Assembly: GCF_002572525.1 (NCBI RefSeq)
Contig: NZ_PDBS01000001.1
Coordinates: 682,001 to 746,000, forward strand
DNA length: 64,000 nucleotides
Reading direction: 5' to 3'
Origin: Natrinema sp. CBA1119
GTDB lineage: Archaea; Halobacteriota; Halobacteria; Halobacteriales; Natrialbaceae
In this document: positions 6,282-13,944 of the stretch, piece by piece
Layout of the letters: each line of letters opens with the position of its first letter
Numbering within the stretch: position 1 is the first letter of the stretch
Position numbers and translations under genes: made by a program
Notes under the pieces: generated by a model
Told to the model about the DNA's origin: nothing
Seen by the model: only the letters and a program-made list of their open reading frames with translations
The model's database searches: none

Positions 6282-9200
6282 ATGTATATCAAAGCGATCG
6301 TCCTCGACAATTTCAAGAGTTTCGGTAGAAAGACGAAGATCCCGTTCTACGAGGATTTCACCGTCGTTACGGGTCCGAACGGCTCCGGGAAGTCGAACAT
6401 CATCGACGCCGTCCTCTTCGCGCTCGGACTGGCCCGCACCCGCGGGATTCGCGCCGAGAAGCTGACGGACCTCATCTACAACCCCGGTCACGAGGGCGAG
6501 GAGACCGCGAGCGGCCCCCGCGAAGCCACCGTCGAGGTGATTCTCGACAACTCCGAGGGCACCCTCGATCGATCGCAGGTCGTCAACGCCGCGGGCAGCG
6601 ACGACGTCGGCGACGTCGACGAGATTCGCATCCGCCGGCGAGTGAAAGAGACCGAGGACAACTACTACTCCTACTACTACCTCAACGACCGCTCGGTCAA
6701 CCTCTCTGACATTCAGGACCTGCTCGCACAGGCCGGGATCACCCCGGAGGGGTACAACGTCGTCATGCAGGGCGACGTCACCGAGATCATCAACATGACG
6801 CCTCACGCCCGCCGAGAGATCATCGACGAGATCGCGGGCGTCGCGGAGTTCGACGCCAAGAAGGAAGACGCCTTCGGCGAACTCGAGACGGTCCAGGAAC
6901 GGATCGACGAGGCCGAACTCCGCATCGAGGAGAAACGCGACCGCCTCGACCAACTCGCGGACGAACGCCGGGAGGCCATGCGATACCGCCGGCTCCGCCG
7001 CGAAAAAGAGGAGTACGAGGGCTACAAGAAAGCCAGCGAACTCGAGGAGAAACGCGCCGAACTCGCGTCGGTCGAGCGCGAGGTCGACGACCTCGAGGAC
7101 GAACTCCGGGAGCTCCAGCGCGAACTCGACGAGCGCGAGGGGACGGTCGTCCGCCTCCAGGAAGACCTCGAGGACCTGAACGCGGACATCGAGCGCAAGG
7201 GCGAGGACGAACAGCTCCGGATCAAAAGCGAGATCGAGGAGATCAAAGGCGACATCTCGCGGCTCGAGGACAAGATCGAGGCCAGCGAGGAGGCGATCGA
7301 GGAGGCCGAATCCAAGCGCCGCGAGGCGTTCGTCCAGATCGACCGCAAGCAGGAGACGATCGACGACCTCACCGACGAGATGCGCGAGCACAAACTCGAG
7401 AAGGCCTCGATCAAGAGCGAGATTCAGGAACGCGAGGCCGAACGCGACGAACTCGAGGCCGAAATCGATGCCGTCGATACCGAGTTCGACGAACTCAAGA
7501 CTGATCTGGCCGAGCGCAAGGAGCAACTGGAGGACGTGAAGATGGAGCGGAACGACCTCCAGCGCGAACAGGACCGCCTGCTCGACGAGGCCCGGCGACG
7601 GTCGAACAACATCAGCGAGAAAGCGCAGACGATCGAGGAGAGACGCGAGGAGCTCCCCGAACTCGAGAGCCAGCGCGGCGACCTCGAGCGGGAACTCGAG
7701 AAGGCCGAGCGGAACCGCGCGAACATCGCGGAGGTCGTCGACGACCTCAAGAGCGAGAAGCGACGGCTGCAGTCCGATATCGACGAGCTCGACGACGAGA
7801 TCCAGGCCAAACAACAGGAGTACGCCGAACTCGAGGCCAACGCGGGCGAGAGCGGCGACTCCTCGTTCGGTCGCGCGGTGACGACGATCCTCAACTCGGG
7901 GATCGATGGCGTTCACGGCGCGGTCGCCCAGTTGGGGACCGTCCCCGGCGAGTACGCGGTCGCCTGCGAGACCGCCGCCGGCGGTCGGCTGGCGAACGTG
8001 ATCGTCGACGACGACGTCATCGGCCAGCAATGTATCGAGCACCTCAAGTCCCGAAACGCGGGGAGAGCGACCTTCCTGCCGCTGACGGACATGAGCCAGC
8101 GTCGACTCCCCAACGCGCCGAGCGATCCGGGGATCGTCGACTTCGCGTACAACCTCGTCGACTTCGATGATGAGTACTCGGGGGTCTTCTCCTACGTCCT
8201 CGGTGACACGCTGGTCGTCGAGGACATCGAGACCGCCCGCTCGTACATGGGCGACTATCGGATGGTCACGCTCGACGGCGACTTAGTCGAGAAGAGCGGG
8301 GCGATGACCGGCGGCTCCGGCGGCGGCTCGCGCTACTCCTTTACCGGCGGCGGCGAGGGCCAACTCGAGCGCGTCGCAAAACAGATCACGGAACTGCAGG
8401 AAGAACGGAAGTCGCTTCGCGAGGACTCCCGCGGCGTCGAGGAGCGACTCGACGACGCCCGCGACCGCAAGAGCGACGCGGCCGACGAAGTTCGGTCGAT
8501 CGAGTCCGAACTCGAGGGCCTCGAGGAGAAACGCGAGGCGATCGAGACGGAGATCGAATCCCTCGAGTCGGACCTCGAGGAGCTCCGCGAGGAGCGCGAA
8601 TCGGTCGACGAGCGGATGAACGAGATCTCCGACGATATCGACGCGAAGACGGCGACGGTCGAGGAACTCGAGGCGGATATTTCCGATCTCGAGCGCGAGC
8701 TCGCGGACTCGAAGATCCCCGAGCTGACCGACCAGATCGAGGCGCTCGAGGCCGAGATCGACGAGCGCGAGGACCGCATTCAGGAACTCGACAATGAACT
8801 CAACGAGCTGAGCCTCGAGAAGGAGTACGCCGAGGACGCCATCGAGGACCTCCACGACGACATCGAGGCCGCGCAAAACCGGACGGCCGAGCACGAAGAC
8901 CGAATCGATGAGTACGAGGCGGAAATCGACGGGAAACGCGAGACGCTCGAGGCGAAACACGAGGCCGTCGCGGAACTCGAAGCAGAGCTCACGGAACTGA
9001 AATCCGAGCGCAGCGACCTCAAGGAGGAACTGTCCGAGGCTCGGACGGACCGCGACAAACAGCAGGATCGGGTCAACACCGTCGAAAGCAAACTCGAGGA
9101 CGCCGGCGAGCGCGCGAGCAGCCTCGAGTGGGAGATCGAGTCCCTCGAATCGGAGGTCGGCGACTACGACCCCGAGGACGTGCCGGATCACGACACCGTC

Positions 9201-9872
9201 CTCGAGATGATCGACTACCTGCAGGCGGATATGGAGGCGATGGAGCCGGTGAACATGCTCGCGATCGACGAGTACGACGAGGTCCGGAGCGATCTCGAGA
9301 CGCTCGAGGAGGGCAGGGAAACGCTGGTCGAAGAGGCCGACGGCATTCGCGAGCGGATCGAGCAGTACGAGACCCAGAAGAAGCAGACGTTCATGGACGC
9401 CTACGACGCGATCGCCGCCCACTTCACCGAGATCTTCGAGAAGCTGTCGGAGGGGACGGGGACGCTCCACCTCGAGGACGAGGACGATCCGTTCGACGGC
9501 GGGCTGACGATGAAGGCACAGCCGGGGGACAAGCCGATCCAGCGCCTGGACGCGATGTCCGGCGGCGAGAAGTCGCTGACCGCGCTCGCCTTCATCTTCG
9601 CGATCCAGCGGCACAACCCGGCCCCGTTCTACGCGCTCGACGAGGTCGACGCCTTCCTCGACGCCGTCAACGCCGATCGGATCGGCGAGATGGTCGACGA
9701 ACTCTCCGACAAGGCCCAGTTCGTCGTCGTCTCCCACCGGTCGGCGATGCTCGATCGCTCCGAGCGGGCGATCGGTGTGACGATGCAACAGGATAACGTG
9801 AGCGCTGTTACTGGAATCGATCTGAGCGACGGCGGCGACGGCAGCGGGGAGGAGGTGCCGGTCAGTGACTAA
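6282..9872 (+). CDS. smc: Chromosome segregation ATPase SMC
   Basis: This 1196-residue protein is the condensin-type SMC that, with kleisin ScpA, extrudes or holds DNA loops for chromosome compaction and segregation. The N-terminal head has Walker A GPNGSGKSN at residues 31-39. Two long coiled-coil arms flank a hinge at about residues 540-675, rich in glycine at its end (TGGSGGGSRYS). The C-terminal head has the signature MSGGEKS (from residue 1092) and Walker B FYALDEVDAF near residue 1119. Length is normal for the family. It follows DUF7518 and overlaps scpA by 8 nt, so the three probably form one operon. Confidence 0.97.
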   Translation: MYIKAIVLDNFKSFGRKTKIPFYEDFTVVTGPNGSGKSNIIDAVLFALGLARTRGIRAEKLTDLIYNPGHEGEETASGPREATVEVILDNSEGTLDRSQVVNAAGSDDVGDVDEIRIRRRVKETEDNYYSYYYLNDRSVNLSDIQDLLAQAGITPEGYNVVMQGDVTEIINMTPHARREIIDEIAGVAEFDAKKEDAFGELETVQERIDEAELRIEEKRDRLDQLADERREAMRYRRLRREKEEYEGYKKASELEEKRAELASVEREVDDLEDELRELQRELDEREGTVVRLQEDLEDLNADIERKGEDEQLRIKSEIEEIKGDISRLEDKIEASEEAIEEAESKRREAFVQIDRKQETIDDLTDEMREHKLEKASIKSEIQEREAERDELEAEIDAVDTEFDELKTDLAERKEQLEDVKMERNDLQREQDRLLDEARRRSNNISEKAQTIEERREELPELESQRGDLERELEKAERNRANIAEVVDDLKSEKRRLQSDIDELDDEIQAKQQEYAELEANAGESGDSSFGRAVTTILNSGIDGVHGAVAQLGTVPGEYAVACETAAGGRLANVIVDDDVIGQQCIEHLKSRNAGRATFLPLTDMSQRRLPNAPSDPGIVDFAYNLVDFDDEYSGVFSYVLGDTLVVEDIETARSYMGDYRMVTLDGDLVEKSGAMTGGSGGGSRYSFTGGGEGQLERVAKQITELQEERKSLREDSRGVEERLDDARDRKSDAADEVRSIESELEGLEEKREAIETEIESLESDLEELREERESVDERMNEISDDIDAKTATVEELEADISDLERELADSKIPELTDQIEALEAEIDEREDRIQELDNELNELSLEKEYAEDAIEDLHDDIEAAQNRTAEHEDRIDEYEAEIDGKRETLEAKHEAVAELEAELTELKSERSDLKEELSEARTDRDKQQDRVNTVESKLEDAGERASSLEWEIESLESEVGDYDPEDVPDHDTVLEMIDYLQADMEAMEPVNMLAIDEYDEVRSDLETLEEGRETLVEEADGIRERIEQYETQKKQTFMDAYDAIAAHFTEIFEKLSEGTGTLHLEDEDDPFDGGLTMKAQPGDKPIQRLDAMSGGEKSLTALAFIFAIQRHNPAPFYALDEVDAFLDAVNADRIGEMVDELSDKAQFVVVSHRSAMLDRSERAIGVTMQQDNVSAVTGIDLSDGGDGSGEEVPVSD
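9851..9857 (+). promoter_or_regulatory. Shine-Dalgarno sequence supporting the GTG start of scpA
   Basis: GGAGGTG within the last codons of smc lies 7 nt before the GTG at 9865. It matches the 3' end of archaeal 16S rRNA and supports translational coupling of scpA to smc and the GTG start. Confidence 0.6.
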
Positions 9873-10899
9873 TCACGACGACTTTTATACTGATGGGGGG
9901 GACGAGATCCCCCTCGACATCGCGGGCCACGAGGACCGCGAGCGCCCCGGGGACGCGGACTCGAGCACGGACGACGATTCCGACGACGAGAGCCCACCGG
10001 TCGGGGCCGACGGTTCCGTCCTCGAGTTCGCGGACGTCGAAACGGCCACGGAGACGTCCGAAGGCGACGAAAACGGCGAAGAGGAGGAGACGGTCGAGCC
10101 CGTCGAATTGCTCGTTCAGCTCGCGAAGGACGGCGACATCGACCCGTGGGACATCGACATCGTCGCGGTCACCGACAAGTTCCTCGAGGCGATCGACGAG
10201 GTCGACCTGCGAACCTCCGGGCGGGCGCTGTTCTACGCGAGCGTCCTCCTGCGGATGAAAAGCGACGAGCTGTTCGCCACCGACGAGCCCGACGAGGAGG
10301 AGCTCCCGCCGTGGGAAGCGCCCTTCGCCGACGACGGGCCGATGGACCCGGCAGACGATGACGGACGGGAGTATCCGCCGGGATTCGATCCCGTCGAGAA
10401 CCTCGAGGAGGAGATGGAGCGCCGCCTCGAGCGAAAGCACGCCCGCGGGAAGCCGGAGACGCTGGACGAACTGGTCCGCGAGCTTCGGACCGCCGAGCGC
10501 GACACCTGGTGGAAGGAGTCGCGAAGTTACGATACGAGCGACTCGCCGAAGGGGTACGATCGTGGCGTGCAGGAGCTGAACTACCACTCGGGCGACGACT
10601 TCCGGGTCGACGACGAGCCGACCAGCGACGACGTGACCCACACGACCCACGAGGAGGACATTGAGGCGGTCATCGACGACGTCGAGACGGAACTCGAAGA
10701 CCGCTACGAGCGAGGCCGCGACGAGGTGCTGTACGCCGAAATCGACGGTGTCGGCGGGACGCGCGTCATGACCTACCTCGCGCTGCTCTTTCTGGCCCAT
10801 CGGGGGACGGTGACGCTCGAGCAGGACGAACTGTTCGGCGACCTCTGGGTCAAGGAGGCTACAGTGGAGGCGGAGGCAAGCGAAGCGATCGCCGACTGA
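9865..10899 (+). CDS. scpA: Kleisin ScpA, SMC partner
   Basis: The 344-residue protein has an acidic low-complexity N-terminus (about 70 residues) before the ScpA domain: EPVELLVQLAKDGDIDPWDI and TDKFLEAIDEVDLRTSGRAL are the classical kleisin start that binds the SMC neck. A linker (residues 140-240) is followed by a C-terminal winged helix (VGGTRVMTYLALLFLAHRGT) expected to bind the SMC head cap. It starts at GTG inside the 3' end of smc with a good ribosome-binding site. ScpB is not next door, as is usual in Halobacteria. The acidic extension is an adaptation commonly seen in halophiles. Confidence 0.93.
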   Translation: MTNHDDFYTDGGDEIPLDIAGHEDRERPGDADSSTDDDSDDESPPVGADGSVLEFADVETATETSEGDENGEEEETVEPVELLVQLAKDGDIDPWDIDIVAVTDKFLEAIDEVDLRTSGRALFYASVLLRMKSDELFATDEPDEEELPPWEAPFADDGPMDPADDDGREYPPGFDPVENLEEEMERRLERKHARGKPETLDELVRELRTAERDTWWKESRSYDTSDSPKGYDRGVQELNYHSGDDFRVDDEPTSDDVTHTTHEEDIEAVIDDVETELEDRYERGRDEVLYAEIDGVGGTRVMTYLALLFLAHRGTVTLEQDELFGDLWVKEATVEAEASEAIAD

Positions 10900-11239
10900 G
10901 TGTTCTGAACCGGTTCGTTGTTCGGCTCGAGTAGCGCTACGTGACGGTTGTCACAGCGCCACGTCTGCCGGCCGCTCAACTGTCCGCTCGATGAATCGGG
11001 ACGATGATCGGAGACCGGGATAGTCGGGAGCGGTCCGATACGGTCGCCGCATCTGTAGACGCCGTTCGTGCAGGCGATACCGATTTAGCTGAATCACGAG
11101 CGCGCCGTCCACGAGTGACCGTCGGAACCGATCGGCTGTTCCGCAGGTGATGATACCGTGCGTCCGTTCACCGACCGTGAAGGTCGAGAGATATTCCGTC
11201 GAGAGAAGATTTATTCCGCTTCGGCTCGACGCAGTAGCT
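10900..11239. other. Intergenic region, promoter only
   Basis: I find no convincing gene in these 340 nt. A TATA-like TTTATT at 11210-11215 lies 25-30 nt before the ATG at 11240, suggesting a leaderless transcript for the downstream pair. A short GTGAC...GTCAC inverted repeat is near 10940. An in-frame start at 11147 would extend the downstream protein but lies before this promoter. Confidence 0.55.
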
Positions 11240-11815
11240 ATGGACGAACCGAACTCGGAACTGACGGCGAGTGCTGAGGAACGCGCAGAATCGCCGGAGT
11301 TCGATTCGCTGACGCCGACTGCGGAAGTCGTTCACGGTGATCGCACGCGCGACGACTTCTTTGATGCGGTTCTCGGACTGGATAGTCCAGCGACGGTCGG
11401 TGATGTCGCCGAGTACGCCGGTCACGGGGTAGACGCGGCACGGGAGTACTTGGAGTGGTTCCACCGGATGGGAATCGTCACACGGGTCACCGAGTCGCCA
11501 GCGACGTATGAGCGGAATCAGGAGTACCTGAACTGGCGGCGCGTCCAGCGACTCCGGGATCGACACACGACTGATGAACTCCTGGACTACCTGGCCGCGG
11601 AGACGGAGCGCGACGAGGAGTACGGTGAGATGTTCAAGGTCGACTCCCCGAACGCGGTTTCGATCGCCGCTCGCGCCTCGGAGACCGGTCGCTCGGTCGA
11701 GGAGGTCTGGGAAGACGTTTCCGCGTGGAAGACGACTCGTCGTCGGATCAGCCTTCTCGAGCGGGCGTTGACGACTGATTCCGGCGATTCAGCTACGGAA
11801 CGAACCGCCGTATGA
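11240..11815 (+). CDS. Winged-helix regulator, DUF7342-like; probable antitoxin of a TumE-type pair
   Basis: The 191-residue product begins MDEPNSELTASAEERAE and has a helix-turn-helix at about residues 40-95 (RTRDDFFDAVLGLDSPATVG ... AREYLEWFHRMGIVTRV), followed by a helical region NRRVQRL-like that resembles the haloarchaeal DUF7342 family of putative regulators. Its stop codon overlaps the ATG of the next gene (ATGA), so the two are translationally coupled. Coupling with a TumE-like protein suggests it neutralises and autoregulates that partner, as antitoxins do; this is inference. The start fits the TATA-like element at 11210. A plain transcriptional regulator is the alternative. Confidence 0.75.
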   Translation: MDEPNSELTASAEERAESPEFDSLTPTAEVVHGDRTRDDFFDAVLGLDSPATVGDVAEYAGHGVDAAREYLEWFHRMGIVTRVTESPATYERNQEYLNWRRVQRLRDRHTTDELLDYLAAETERDEEYGEMFKVDSPNAVSIAARASETGRSVEEVWEDVSAWKTTRRRISLLERALTTDSGDSATERTAV

Positions 11816-12261
11816 CCGACCGAAACGACGGGATGGGAACACCTGAAGACAGCGGCGGAGCACCGGTTGATTTCGACCGGCTCGAGGTCATCGCGGAACG
11901 GTTGTCTACTGACGAACGATTCGACGAGATTAGGGTACAGCCGTCGTTCGCACCGGATCGGGTGGTGGGCGTATACGATTCCAGTTTCTACCCGCGCAGC
12001 GTTCACACGGCCCGCCTGGAGATCGTGTGGTTCGAGAACGGGGACTGTTCGCTTCAGTACCACGAAACGCATGACGAGGGAACGTTCGATCATCGGTGGG
12101 ATCGACATCCGTCCGACCACAACGCACGTGACCACGTGCACCCAGGTCCCGACGCGCCGACACCGGGGACCGACTCGTCACACCCGCCAGATTGGCGCGA
12201 TATCCTCTCGATGGTACTCGCGGAAATCGAAGACCGGCAACGAGCGTTCTGGGTCGAGTGA
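11812..12261 (+). CDS. TumE-like (DUF6516) protein; putative toxin of a toxin-antitoxin pair
   Basis: The 149-residue protein contains YDSSFYPRSVHTARLEIVWF, then SLQYHETHDEGTFDHRWDRH and SDHNARDHVHPGPD, a pattern of an arginine, aromatic and paired histidines that I recognise from the TumE/DUF6516 toxin family, ending in a conserved helix DILSMVLAEIEDRQRAFWVE. The family is described as the toxin of TumE-TumA modules; its molecular target is not established by anything visible here. It overlaps the upstream wHTH gene by 4 nt, matching antitoxin-first order. Full length, no frameshift. The next gene is 160 nt away with its own orientation-matched promoter region. Confidence 0.72.
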   Translation: MTDRNDGMGTPEDSGGAPVDFDRLEVIAERLSTDERFDEIRVQPSFAPDRVVGVYDSSFYPRSVHTARLEIVWFENGDCSLQYHETHDEGTFDHRWDRHPSDHNARDHVHPGPDAPTPGTDSSHPPDWRDILSMVLAEIEDRQRAFWVE

Positions 12262-12421
12262 GTGAAAGAGCGTCAGTTCGTGACTTCGACGGTTCGTACC
12301 CCATTGAACGCCGGATATTCGATACCGCGCTCGGCTATCGACCGGCAGTCGTACTGACTCCCGATTCGGTCTCCTCGAGCGCCCACAAGCGTTTAGCCCG
12401 CACCGGCGAAACCTCGAGTCG

Positions 12422-13081
12422 ATGACGAGGCCGGACGATGTCCTCTTTCGGAGTCGCGTCGAGACGTTCGCGCTGGTTCGGAAGCTGCTGCCAATCGCCC
12501 TCCTCGCGGGGGCCCTGGTCGGGCCGCTGTACCGGTTCGAGCCGACGGTCGCGATGTGGATTTCTGCCGTGAGTTTCCTGGTGGTCCTTGTCGGTCTCCT
12601 CCTCGTAAGCCGCCTCCCGCTGTATCCGGCTCACACCTTCGGGATCGAGTACCGATTCGAGGAGGAGCCGTTCGACACCGGTCGGCGACAGTGCGTCCGC
12701 TGTGGCGTGCTGGCCGAATCCGGCACGCACCGCCGCTACGCTCGACAGATCGTCGTCCTCGGCGTGCCGCTTCACACCCTCGAGTGGGGGAGCAACGACT
12801 TCTGTGGCGACTGCGTCGCGCTCGGGGACGCCATCGACTCGCGTCCCGAGGCCGAGCGAACCGCGGTACCGGATCCGTCGCCGACCCAATCGACGGCGCG
12901 TGAACCGGGCCGAAGTCGAAATGCAGAACAGGAACGGGAACGGGAACGAGAACGAGCAACGGGATCGCCGTCAGGCGACGGGATGCGGTCGGACGAAGAA
13001 CCGCCGCGCCTCGAGCGGGCCCAGCGCATCGACCGAAGCGACGAGACGACCGCGCTGGAGCTCAGGCGCGCGTTCGACTAG
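12422..13081 (+). CDS. Two-helix membrane protein with zinc-binding cysteine pairs, function unknown
   Basis: This 219-residue protein has two membrane segments (about residues 20-38 and 42-62), then a cytoplasmic domain with CVRCG and, 45 residues later, CGDC, a likely zinc site. The C-terminal third is charged and disordered, including an Arg-Glu run (EQERERERERA) encoded by a hexanucleotide repeat near 12931-12957. I do not recognise a characterised family. It converges with mtnP, whose stop lies 3 nt beyond its own. No functional inference beyond membrane location is justified. Confidence 0.8.
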   Translation: MTRPDDVLFRSRVETFALVRKLLPIALLAGALVGPLYRFEPTVAMWISAVSFLVVLVGLLLVSRLPLYPAHTFGIEYRFEEEPFDTGRRQCVRCGVLAESGTHRRYARQIVVLGVPLHTLEWGSNDFCGDCVALGDAIDSRPEAERTAVPDPSPTQSTAREPGRSRNAEQERERERERATGSPSGDGMRSDEEPPRLERAQRIDRSDETTALELRRAFD

Positions 13082-13083
13082 AC

Positions 13084-13944
13084 TCACTCGAGGTAGTCGC
13101 CGGCCAGCAGGTAGACGCGCTCGAGCGTCTCTTCGGGGATCGCCTCCTGTGGCGTGTTGATCGTCCCCTCGAGGGCACTCCAGGCCTCGCTCTCGAAGTC
13201 CTCGGGCATCGTTCGGATGGCGCGTTCGACGACTGCGTTGATCGCGTCCTGATTGGCCGCGGCGTTCTCGAGGACCTCCTCGAGGGTGACCTCGCTGTCT
13301 TGCTTCCAGACGTCGTAATCGGTGACGCCGGCGACGGTGGCGTAGCTCAGCTCGGCCTCGCGGGCGAGTTTGGCCTCCGGGATGGCGGTCATACCGACGA
13401 TGTCCCAGCCCTGGTCGCGGTAGAACTCGCTCTCGGCCCGGGTAGAGTACTGCGGGCCTTCGATGCAGACGTACGTGCCGTCTTCCTGGGTTTTCGTTCC
13501 GCCGTCGGTCGCTTCCCGTGCCGATTCCGCGAGGTGGGAGACCAGTTCGGGACAGTACGGATCGGCAAAGCCCATGTGGACGACCATGCCGTCGCCGAAG
13601 AAGGTGGGCGTGCGGTGTTTGGTTCGGTCGAAGATCTGGTCGGGAATAACCAGCGTTCGCGGCGGCAGGTCCTCGCGCAGGCTCCCGACCGCGTTCGTGG
13701 CGATGACACGGTCGACGCCGACCGATTTGAGCGCGTAGATGTTCGCCCGATAGGCCGCGTCGGTCGGCGGATGCTGATGGTTCTCGCCGTGACGCGGGAG
13801 GAACGCGACGTCTCGCCCAGCGAGTTCACCGCGGGTGACCGCCTCGCTCGGCTCGCCGTACGGTGTCGAGATTTCCTCTTTGCGGGTGTTCTCGAGTGGC
13901 AGTGCGTCGTAGATGCCGCTGCCGCCGATTACGCCGATCGTCAT
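13084..13944 (-). CDS. mtnP: S-methyl-5'-thioadenosine phosphorylase
   Basis: The 286-residue enzyme opens with MTIGVIGGSGIYDALPLE and has the MTAP/PNP-family phosphate and purine motifs FLPRHGENHQHPPT, ATNAVGSLREDL and GMTAIPEAKLAREAELSYA. It cleaves methylthioadenosine with phosphate to adenine and 5-methylthioribose-1-phosphate, recycling the by-product of polyamine and other SAM-dependent reactions. Length is typical for archaeal MTAP. It is a single gene on the minus strand, diverging from the MATE gene. Inosine-preferring MTAP II homologues are similar, so exact purine preference is uncertain. Confidence 0.93.
   Translation of the reverse strand: MTIGVIGGSGIYDALPLENTRKEEISTPYGEPSEAVTRGELAGRDVAFLPRHGENHQHPPTDAAYRANIYALKSVGVDRVIATNAVGSLREDLPPRTLVIPDQIFDRTKHRTPTFFGDGMVVHMGFADPYCPELVSHLAESAREATDGGTKTQEDGTYVCIEGPQYSTRAESEFYRDQGWDIVGMTAIPEAKLAREAELSYATVAGVTDYDVWKQDSEVTLEEVLENAAANQDAINAVVERAIRTMPEDFESEAWSALEGTINTPQEAIPEETLERVYLLAGDYLE

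Follow-up and report, generated by a model that had tools for sequence, protein, structure and literature searches.

Does the small gene that overlaps a winged-helix gene behind scpA in Natrinema sp. CBA1119 belong to a toxin-antitoxin module, and is its product a relative of the toxin TumE? Archaeal pairs of a winged-helix protein and a small protein need not be toxin-antitoxin systems. We examined the pair within a stretch of 64,000 nucleotides (contig NZ_PDBS01000001.1, positions 682,001 to 746,000 of the forward strand; hereafter, the window), in which a preliminary description had seen a resemblance to such a module with a TumE-like second protein. We consider it probable that the pair is a mobile, autoregulated and haloarchaea-specific toxin-antitoxin module composed of a DUF7342 antitoxin/repressor and a remote TumE-superfamily toxin.

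According to the available text of PMC10584680, toxicity of TumE was shown in E. coli for gammaproteobacterial proteins, translation inhibition was also shown in E. coli, and an RNase activity was proposed and is unproven. The available main text of the same paper on TumE-TumA does not contain the name DUF7342. In the literature searched we found no demonstration of toxicity for archaeal TumE proteins, no paper on a DUF7342/TumE-like pair, and none under the name DUF7342.

The gene pair and its promoter

The locus has the following features.

6282-9872, smc (Pfam domains SMC_N and SMC_hinge), upstream of scpA
9865-10899, scpA (Pfam domain SMC_ScpA), upstream of the pair
10900-12360, plus strand, inserted block (approximate ends) that holds pair and leader and separates scpA from the 219-aa gene
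11192-11219, plus strand, predicted operator read from the sequence, a direct repeat TATTCCGT (11192-11199) / TATTCCGC (11212-11219), 20 bp apart
11240-11815, plus strand, first gene, putative antitoxin/autorepressor, winged-helix DUF7342 protein of 191 aa (PF24033 match)
11812-11815, plus strand, ATGA stop/start overlap read from the sequence, with presumed translational coupling
11812-12261, plus strand, second gene, putative toxin of 149 aa, likely remote TumE superfamily (family profile, AF2 topology and motif)
12422-13081, gene for 219 aa without a Pfam match, downstream of the pair
13084-13944, minus strand, phosphorylase-family gene (PNP_UDP_1 domain in Pfam; nucleoside phosphorylase)

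The frame of the first gene runs from ATG 11240 to TGA 11815 and that of the second from ATG 11812 to TGA 12261. The two genes share 4 bp (ATGA), as the preliminary description had stated, and its regulator-first order was also recovered, with the gene for DUF7342, the presumed antitoxin, upstream. Overlapping or adjacent genes, usually with the antitoxin in front, are a generic feature of type II toxin-antitoxin systems and are present here with DUF7342 first. A longer mechanical open reading frame of the first gene starts at GTG 11147. We preferred ATG 11240 because a TATA-like TTTATT (11210-11215) lies about 27 nt upstream and because the starts of relatives lie there; judged from the sequence, this distance would be that expected of a leaderless archaeal transcript.

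The first protein matched DUF7342 (PF24033) with 104.8 bits against a Pfam gathering cut-off of 31.6 and gave weak winged-helix matches as well, in agreement with the winged helix-turn-helix nature assigned to it earlier. The genome of Natrinema sp. CBA1119 contains six DUF7342 matches over the cut-off, and one further match passes only jointly with a neighbouring match. DUF7342 was found over the cut-off in 51 of 59 class-level genomes, with a maximum of 12 matches in one sampled genome, and in 27 of 196 phylum-level genomes. Outside the order, matches occurred in two phylum-level genomes (G403 and G407), both below the cut-off.

The second copy of the direct repeat upstream of the pair overlaps the TATA-like element. 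In the 5.06-Mb genome the repeat pair occurs exactly once, and at 4 more places with one mismatch. Among the 39 promoters of the group to which the window belongs, a repeat spacing of 20 stood out (z = 11.0), and three other promoter groups (15, 16 and 12 promoters) carried different repeats at a spacing of 19-21 (z = 3.8 to 7.2); these z-scores are inflated by relatedness, and the groups were assigned by hand and the start codons automatically, with 4 of 86 promoters falling outside the groups. We read the repeats as a predicted operator because their sequence changes between groups while the spacing is nearly unchanged. Repeats so placed over the TATA box would be a signature of autoregulation.

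Relationship of the second protein to TumE

The second protein of the window is outside the Pfam family PF20126 (TumE, formerly DUF6516). The HMM check for DUF6516 proposed in the preliminary description was run and gave 0 matches up to an E-value of 10, and the protein has no match to any Pfam or NCBIfam model. Judged by the first refuting condition of that description, the TumE assignment of the window protein would fail. PADLOC and PHROGs searches with the putative toxin, and searches of the sequences of solved structures, returned nothing convincing. The predicted pattern of Arg, aromatic and His residues is present (R95-W96-D97-R-H-P ... H108-x-H110) and is conserved among the relatives of the protein.

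Relatives of the second protein came closer to TumE. PF20126 was touched below its cut-off by 5 of 21 members in one scan (best E-value 0.0012) and by 14 of 38 in another (best E-value 0.0024), and was the most frequent family in both. In a class-level search with PF20126, proteins of 158-162 aa that are paired with DUF7342 (L173, L174, L176 and L177) scored close to the cut-off of 23.4 bits. Apart from the borderline L177 (162 aa), with 23.7 bits in the six-frame search and 22.4 bits when the protein itself was scanned, all of the scanned relatives stayed under it. A profile of 86 members (one broken row, L059, was left out) scored 24.1 against 32 haloarchaeal TumE sequences, with a probability of 11%; none of 200 column shuffles reached this score (maximum 22.6).

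The strongest DUF7342 proteins pair with other proteins of about 145-188 aa in 28 of 31 loci (L012 and L013 counted), and the remaining three loci have no adjacent downstream open reading frame of at least 90 aa. These partners, of the type GWHxDxxHPxLGxxHxQ (L012, L013 and L209-L237), likewise have DUF7342 directly upstream. They form a sister branch whose homology to the window family extends along the full length (hhalign probability 98.2%, E-value 3.4e-14; maximum of 200 shuffles, 21.5), although their GWH-x-D...H-x-Q motif differs from the RWDRHP...H-x-H of the window and possibly reflects a different activity. The sister branch alone aligned to the same TumE columns as the window family, with a score of 23.9. 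A merged profile of 119 sequences scored 39.6 against TumE (probability 87.8%, E-value 3.3e-6; maximum of 100 shuffles, 18.2), and the alignment lay on the R-[YW]-D...H-x-H motif. When 4,049 open reading frames were searched with the merged HMM, canonical TumE ranked immediately below the family relatives, and the first match that was neither a relative nor TumE had an E-value of 0.17. Neighbouring open reading frames at L128 and L136, which the first profile had missed, scored as further relatives.

The AF2 model of the window protein (pLDDT 76.6; low confidence in loops 102-107 and 114-124; no clear match among solved folds) has the order H-EEEEEE-H, with helices at 21-32 and 128-145 and strands at 37-43, 50-55, 64-74, 79-87, 91-99 and 106-110. 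That of a canonical TumE (L072; pLDDT 95.2) has the order EEEEEE-H, with strands at 4-12, 18-25, 36-43, 49-54, 66-68 and 74-76 and a helix at 82-101. When element orders were compared, the two models had a C-terminal strand-strand-strand-helix order in common; the strand that bears the R-[YW]-D motif corresponds between the models and is followed in both by the one with the His pair. Foldseek with the window model gave no match below an E-value of 0.1 in BFVD or PDB. The listed structure matches of the TumE model differ from those of the window model (Atg10 and frataxin); we drew no conclusion on function from the latter, because the arrangement is common according to the notes of the tool, VIA-align, despite Z-scores of up to 7.0.

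The profile steps through relatives, sister branch and merged profile, together with the predicted folds, make it likely that the second protein is a remote member of the TumE superfamily. The TumE likeness in the preliminary description thus holds as remote homology through relatives and the merged profile, and not as a PF20126 match of the window protein itself.

With TumE-TumA (PF20126), the pair has in common a two-gene operon with a DNA-binding-type partner, here DUF7342 in the upstream position, a small second protein predicted to be alpha/beta with a C-terminal helix, and the residues Y-x-x-Q/H-Y ... R-[YW]-D ... H-x-H on predicted strands that match. The window protein differs in lacking a Pfam model match, in its motif (RWDRHP instead of RYDN), in the extra N-terminal helix and strand relative to the haloarchaeal TumE model, and in having DUF7342 as the putative antitoxin. 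Canonical haloarchaeal TumE, such as L072, comes from the same archaeal class and has the same core motif, whereas its toxin is about 100 aa long (149 aa in the window) and its partner, at L072, is HVO_A0114 (PF25212), which we take to be a DNA-binding-type protein like that of the window pair. Most of the PF20126 loci that we examined have the toxin gene in front and the next gene within a few bases of it, which is the opposite of the order in the window. A further likeness to TumE, as described in the available text of PMC10584680, is the lack of a clear PDB match.

Pairing, distribution and the insertion behind scpA

From 103 family loci, 101 had a toxin open reading frame (102 frames), and 91 non-redundant copies remained once 11 rows had been removed for being identical in the C-terminal 110 residues; eight duplicate loci of the Natrinema sp. 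CBA1119 genome, and L062 and L165 with no passing toxin frame of at least 50 aa, were left out before counting. In 88 of the 91 copies, the second gene was preceded by a DUF7342-type gene in the same orientation and no more than 60 bp away, with gaps of -4 (42 pairs), +8 (16), -8 (14), 0 (11) and other values (5). Because DUF7342 is directly upstream in nearly all copies, the pairing is not due to chance. Distances among toxins and among antitoxins were correlated (r = 0.973 over 85 pairs), and none of 999 permutations gave as high a value. In a second sample, partly overlapping the first and consisting of 80 named loci, 73 were paired.

All three exceptions among the 91 copies (L056, L070 and L166) are damaged. 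At L070 the toxin is a fragment. The antitoxin of L166 is interrupted by an in-frame stop, and the toxin there has Asp at the position of the conserved His103 of the family, as one would expect, in this one case, of a toxin that has to be inactivated when nothing guards it. At L056, in Natronobiforma cellulositropha, an inserted gene, presumably TnpB-like from its look, separates antitoxin and toxin and cuts off the toxin start codon. We had considered L056 as a toxin that had lost its antitoxin and rejected this reading, because a longer locus of the same organism with the same toxin (L266) shows antitoxin residues 47-185 further upstream, beyond the same inserted gene. The seven unpaired loci of the second sample comprise the L056 locus again, three toxin fragments, one locus cut by an assembly gap, and two in which the antitoxin is present with no in-frame toxin start.

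The second-protein family was found in 78 of 101 family-level genomes by a single-sequence search and in 161 of 194 haloarchaeal class-level genomes with a 21-row profile. It also occurred on 120 plasmid records, at 162 places, and on no phage record; a plasmid pair close to that of the window is E6P09_RS17270 / E6P09_RS20105. For 40 of the plasmid records that were listed, every annotated match was named 'hypothetical protein', and the best 80 named loci had haloarchaeal or unresolved archaeal titles. The Natrinema sp. CBA1119 genome (9 contigs) carries four copies of the pair and, elsewhere, three true TumE matches.

In the window, the pair has been inserted behind scpA. The distance from scpA to the 219-aa gene is 1522 bp in the window and 96 bp in a sister genome (G265) whose ScpA is as close (93%). 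We conclude from this empty site that gain and loss involve the pair with its leader and no other genes. The pair adjoins scpA in 2 of 29 genus genomes, that of the window and G262, with protein identities of 92% and 89% between the two. A classic transposon was rejected as an explanation, since neither a target-site duplication nor a terminal inverted repeat stood out when the junctions were aligned and their repeats listed. A functional link to scpA was likewise dropped, since smc, scpA, the 219-aa gene and the phosphorylase gene were all missing from the surroundings of the 98 family loci examined in other genomes. The empty site and the plasmid records give the patchy, mobile distribution of type II toxin-antitoxin systems. 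In many genomes of the genus, the 219-aa gene stays between scpA and the phosphorylase gene.

Proposed mechanism and alternative readings

In the scheme that we infer for the roles of the two proteins, the winged-helix part of the DUF7342 protein would bind the tandem repeats spaced by 20 bp over the TATA box and shut the promoter, and the same protein would bind and block its TumE-like partner. Translational coupling at the ATGA overlap would tie the two products together. A shortfall of the antitoxin, through loss of the element, stress or infection, would free the partner to stop growth. By analogy with TumE, the target of the freed toxin is probably RNA or translation, on which it would most likely act through the conserved Arg-Trp-Asp and His-x-His residues.

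Strict pairing and co-divergence would equally be expected of a regulatory pair, in which DUF7342, winged-helix-like as it is, would regulate transcription of the pair itself or of other genes, and the second protein would serve it as a ligand-binding or co-regulator subunit. This reading is unlikely in view of the patchy presence, the empty site and plasmid carriage, the several copies per genome, and the remote homology that links the partner to a family of proven toxins. That homology could itself be doubted: the resemblance to TumE may be convergence on a short His-rich motif, the second protein being a toxin or enzyme of other descent. When the sister branch is left out, the alignment covers only about 45-70 residues, at a pairwise profile probability of 4-13%, and the window protein itself has no PF20126 match. 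We nevertheless regard convergence as improbable, given that the merged profile scored far above its shuffles, that TumE came first below the family relatives, that each branch by itself aligns to the same columns of TumE, and that the motif lies at the same place in the predicted folds.

The order of the components alone does not fix their roles, so the second protein could be the antitoxin-like or immunity partner, with DUF7342 or a third gene harmful, or the pair could belong to a larger defence island. Such pairs are clustered at C1:2934120-2941319 of the same genome, which would fit an island, whereas the neighbours in the window are housekeeping genes (smc, scpA and the nucleoside phosphorylase gene), the empty site shows the pair and leader moving without other genes, and the TumE homology is located in the second protein. 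Both forms of this alternative are very improbable. A toxin-antitoxin module with DUF7342 as the antitoxin thus remains our preferred reading. The resemblance noted in the preliminary description is thus supported in part: it is strengthened by strict pairing and mobility, although the window protein has no Pfam TumE match and the module has the reverse gene order of most canonical TumE loci examined and another antitoxin family than the one checked there.

If this reading is correct, one of the commonest haloarchaeal two-gene modules would be a toxin-antitoxin system still unrecognised as such in Pfam and NCBIfam, and a new antitoxin family (DUF7342) would join the TumE superfamily. The pair would also offer a tractable archaeal toxin-antitoxin model with a predicted operator, and would raise the question of how parallel modules in one genome avoid cross-talk. 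For specialists, the value lies in the size of the unannotated haloarchaeal module family and in the predicted subfamily-specific operators. More tentatively, DUF7342 and its partners may constitute a major haloarchaea-specific toxin-antitoxin superfamily with at least two toxin branches (RWDRHP...HxH and GWHxD...HxQ), which would have diverged from TumE with gene order and antitoxin swapped and with its own operator in each subfamily, many modules coexisting without cross-talk, perhaps as an antiviral or plasmid-addiction layer.

Several further loci were observed. Two pairs of different subfamilies occur at one locus (L157). In the Natrinema sp. CBA1119 genome, a region of about 7 kb at C1:2934120-2941319 (L012, L013 and L011) contains a canonical TumE gene besides two DUF7342 pairs whose partners are of the GWHQD type, and so represents a small cluster of putative toxin-antitoxin modules. 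An identical TumE gene lies on two contigs of about 20.45 kb (C5:457-702 and C7:3123-3368; L009 and L010), which may represent two copies of one plasmid. Paired weak winged helix-turn-helix matches at C6:34783-38033 and C6:50364-53614 have identical scores and spacing, which suggests a direct duplication about 15.6 kb apart.
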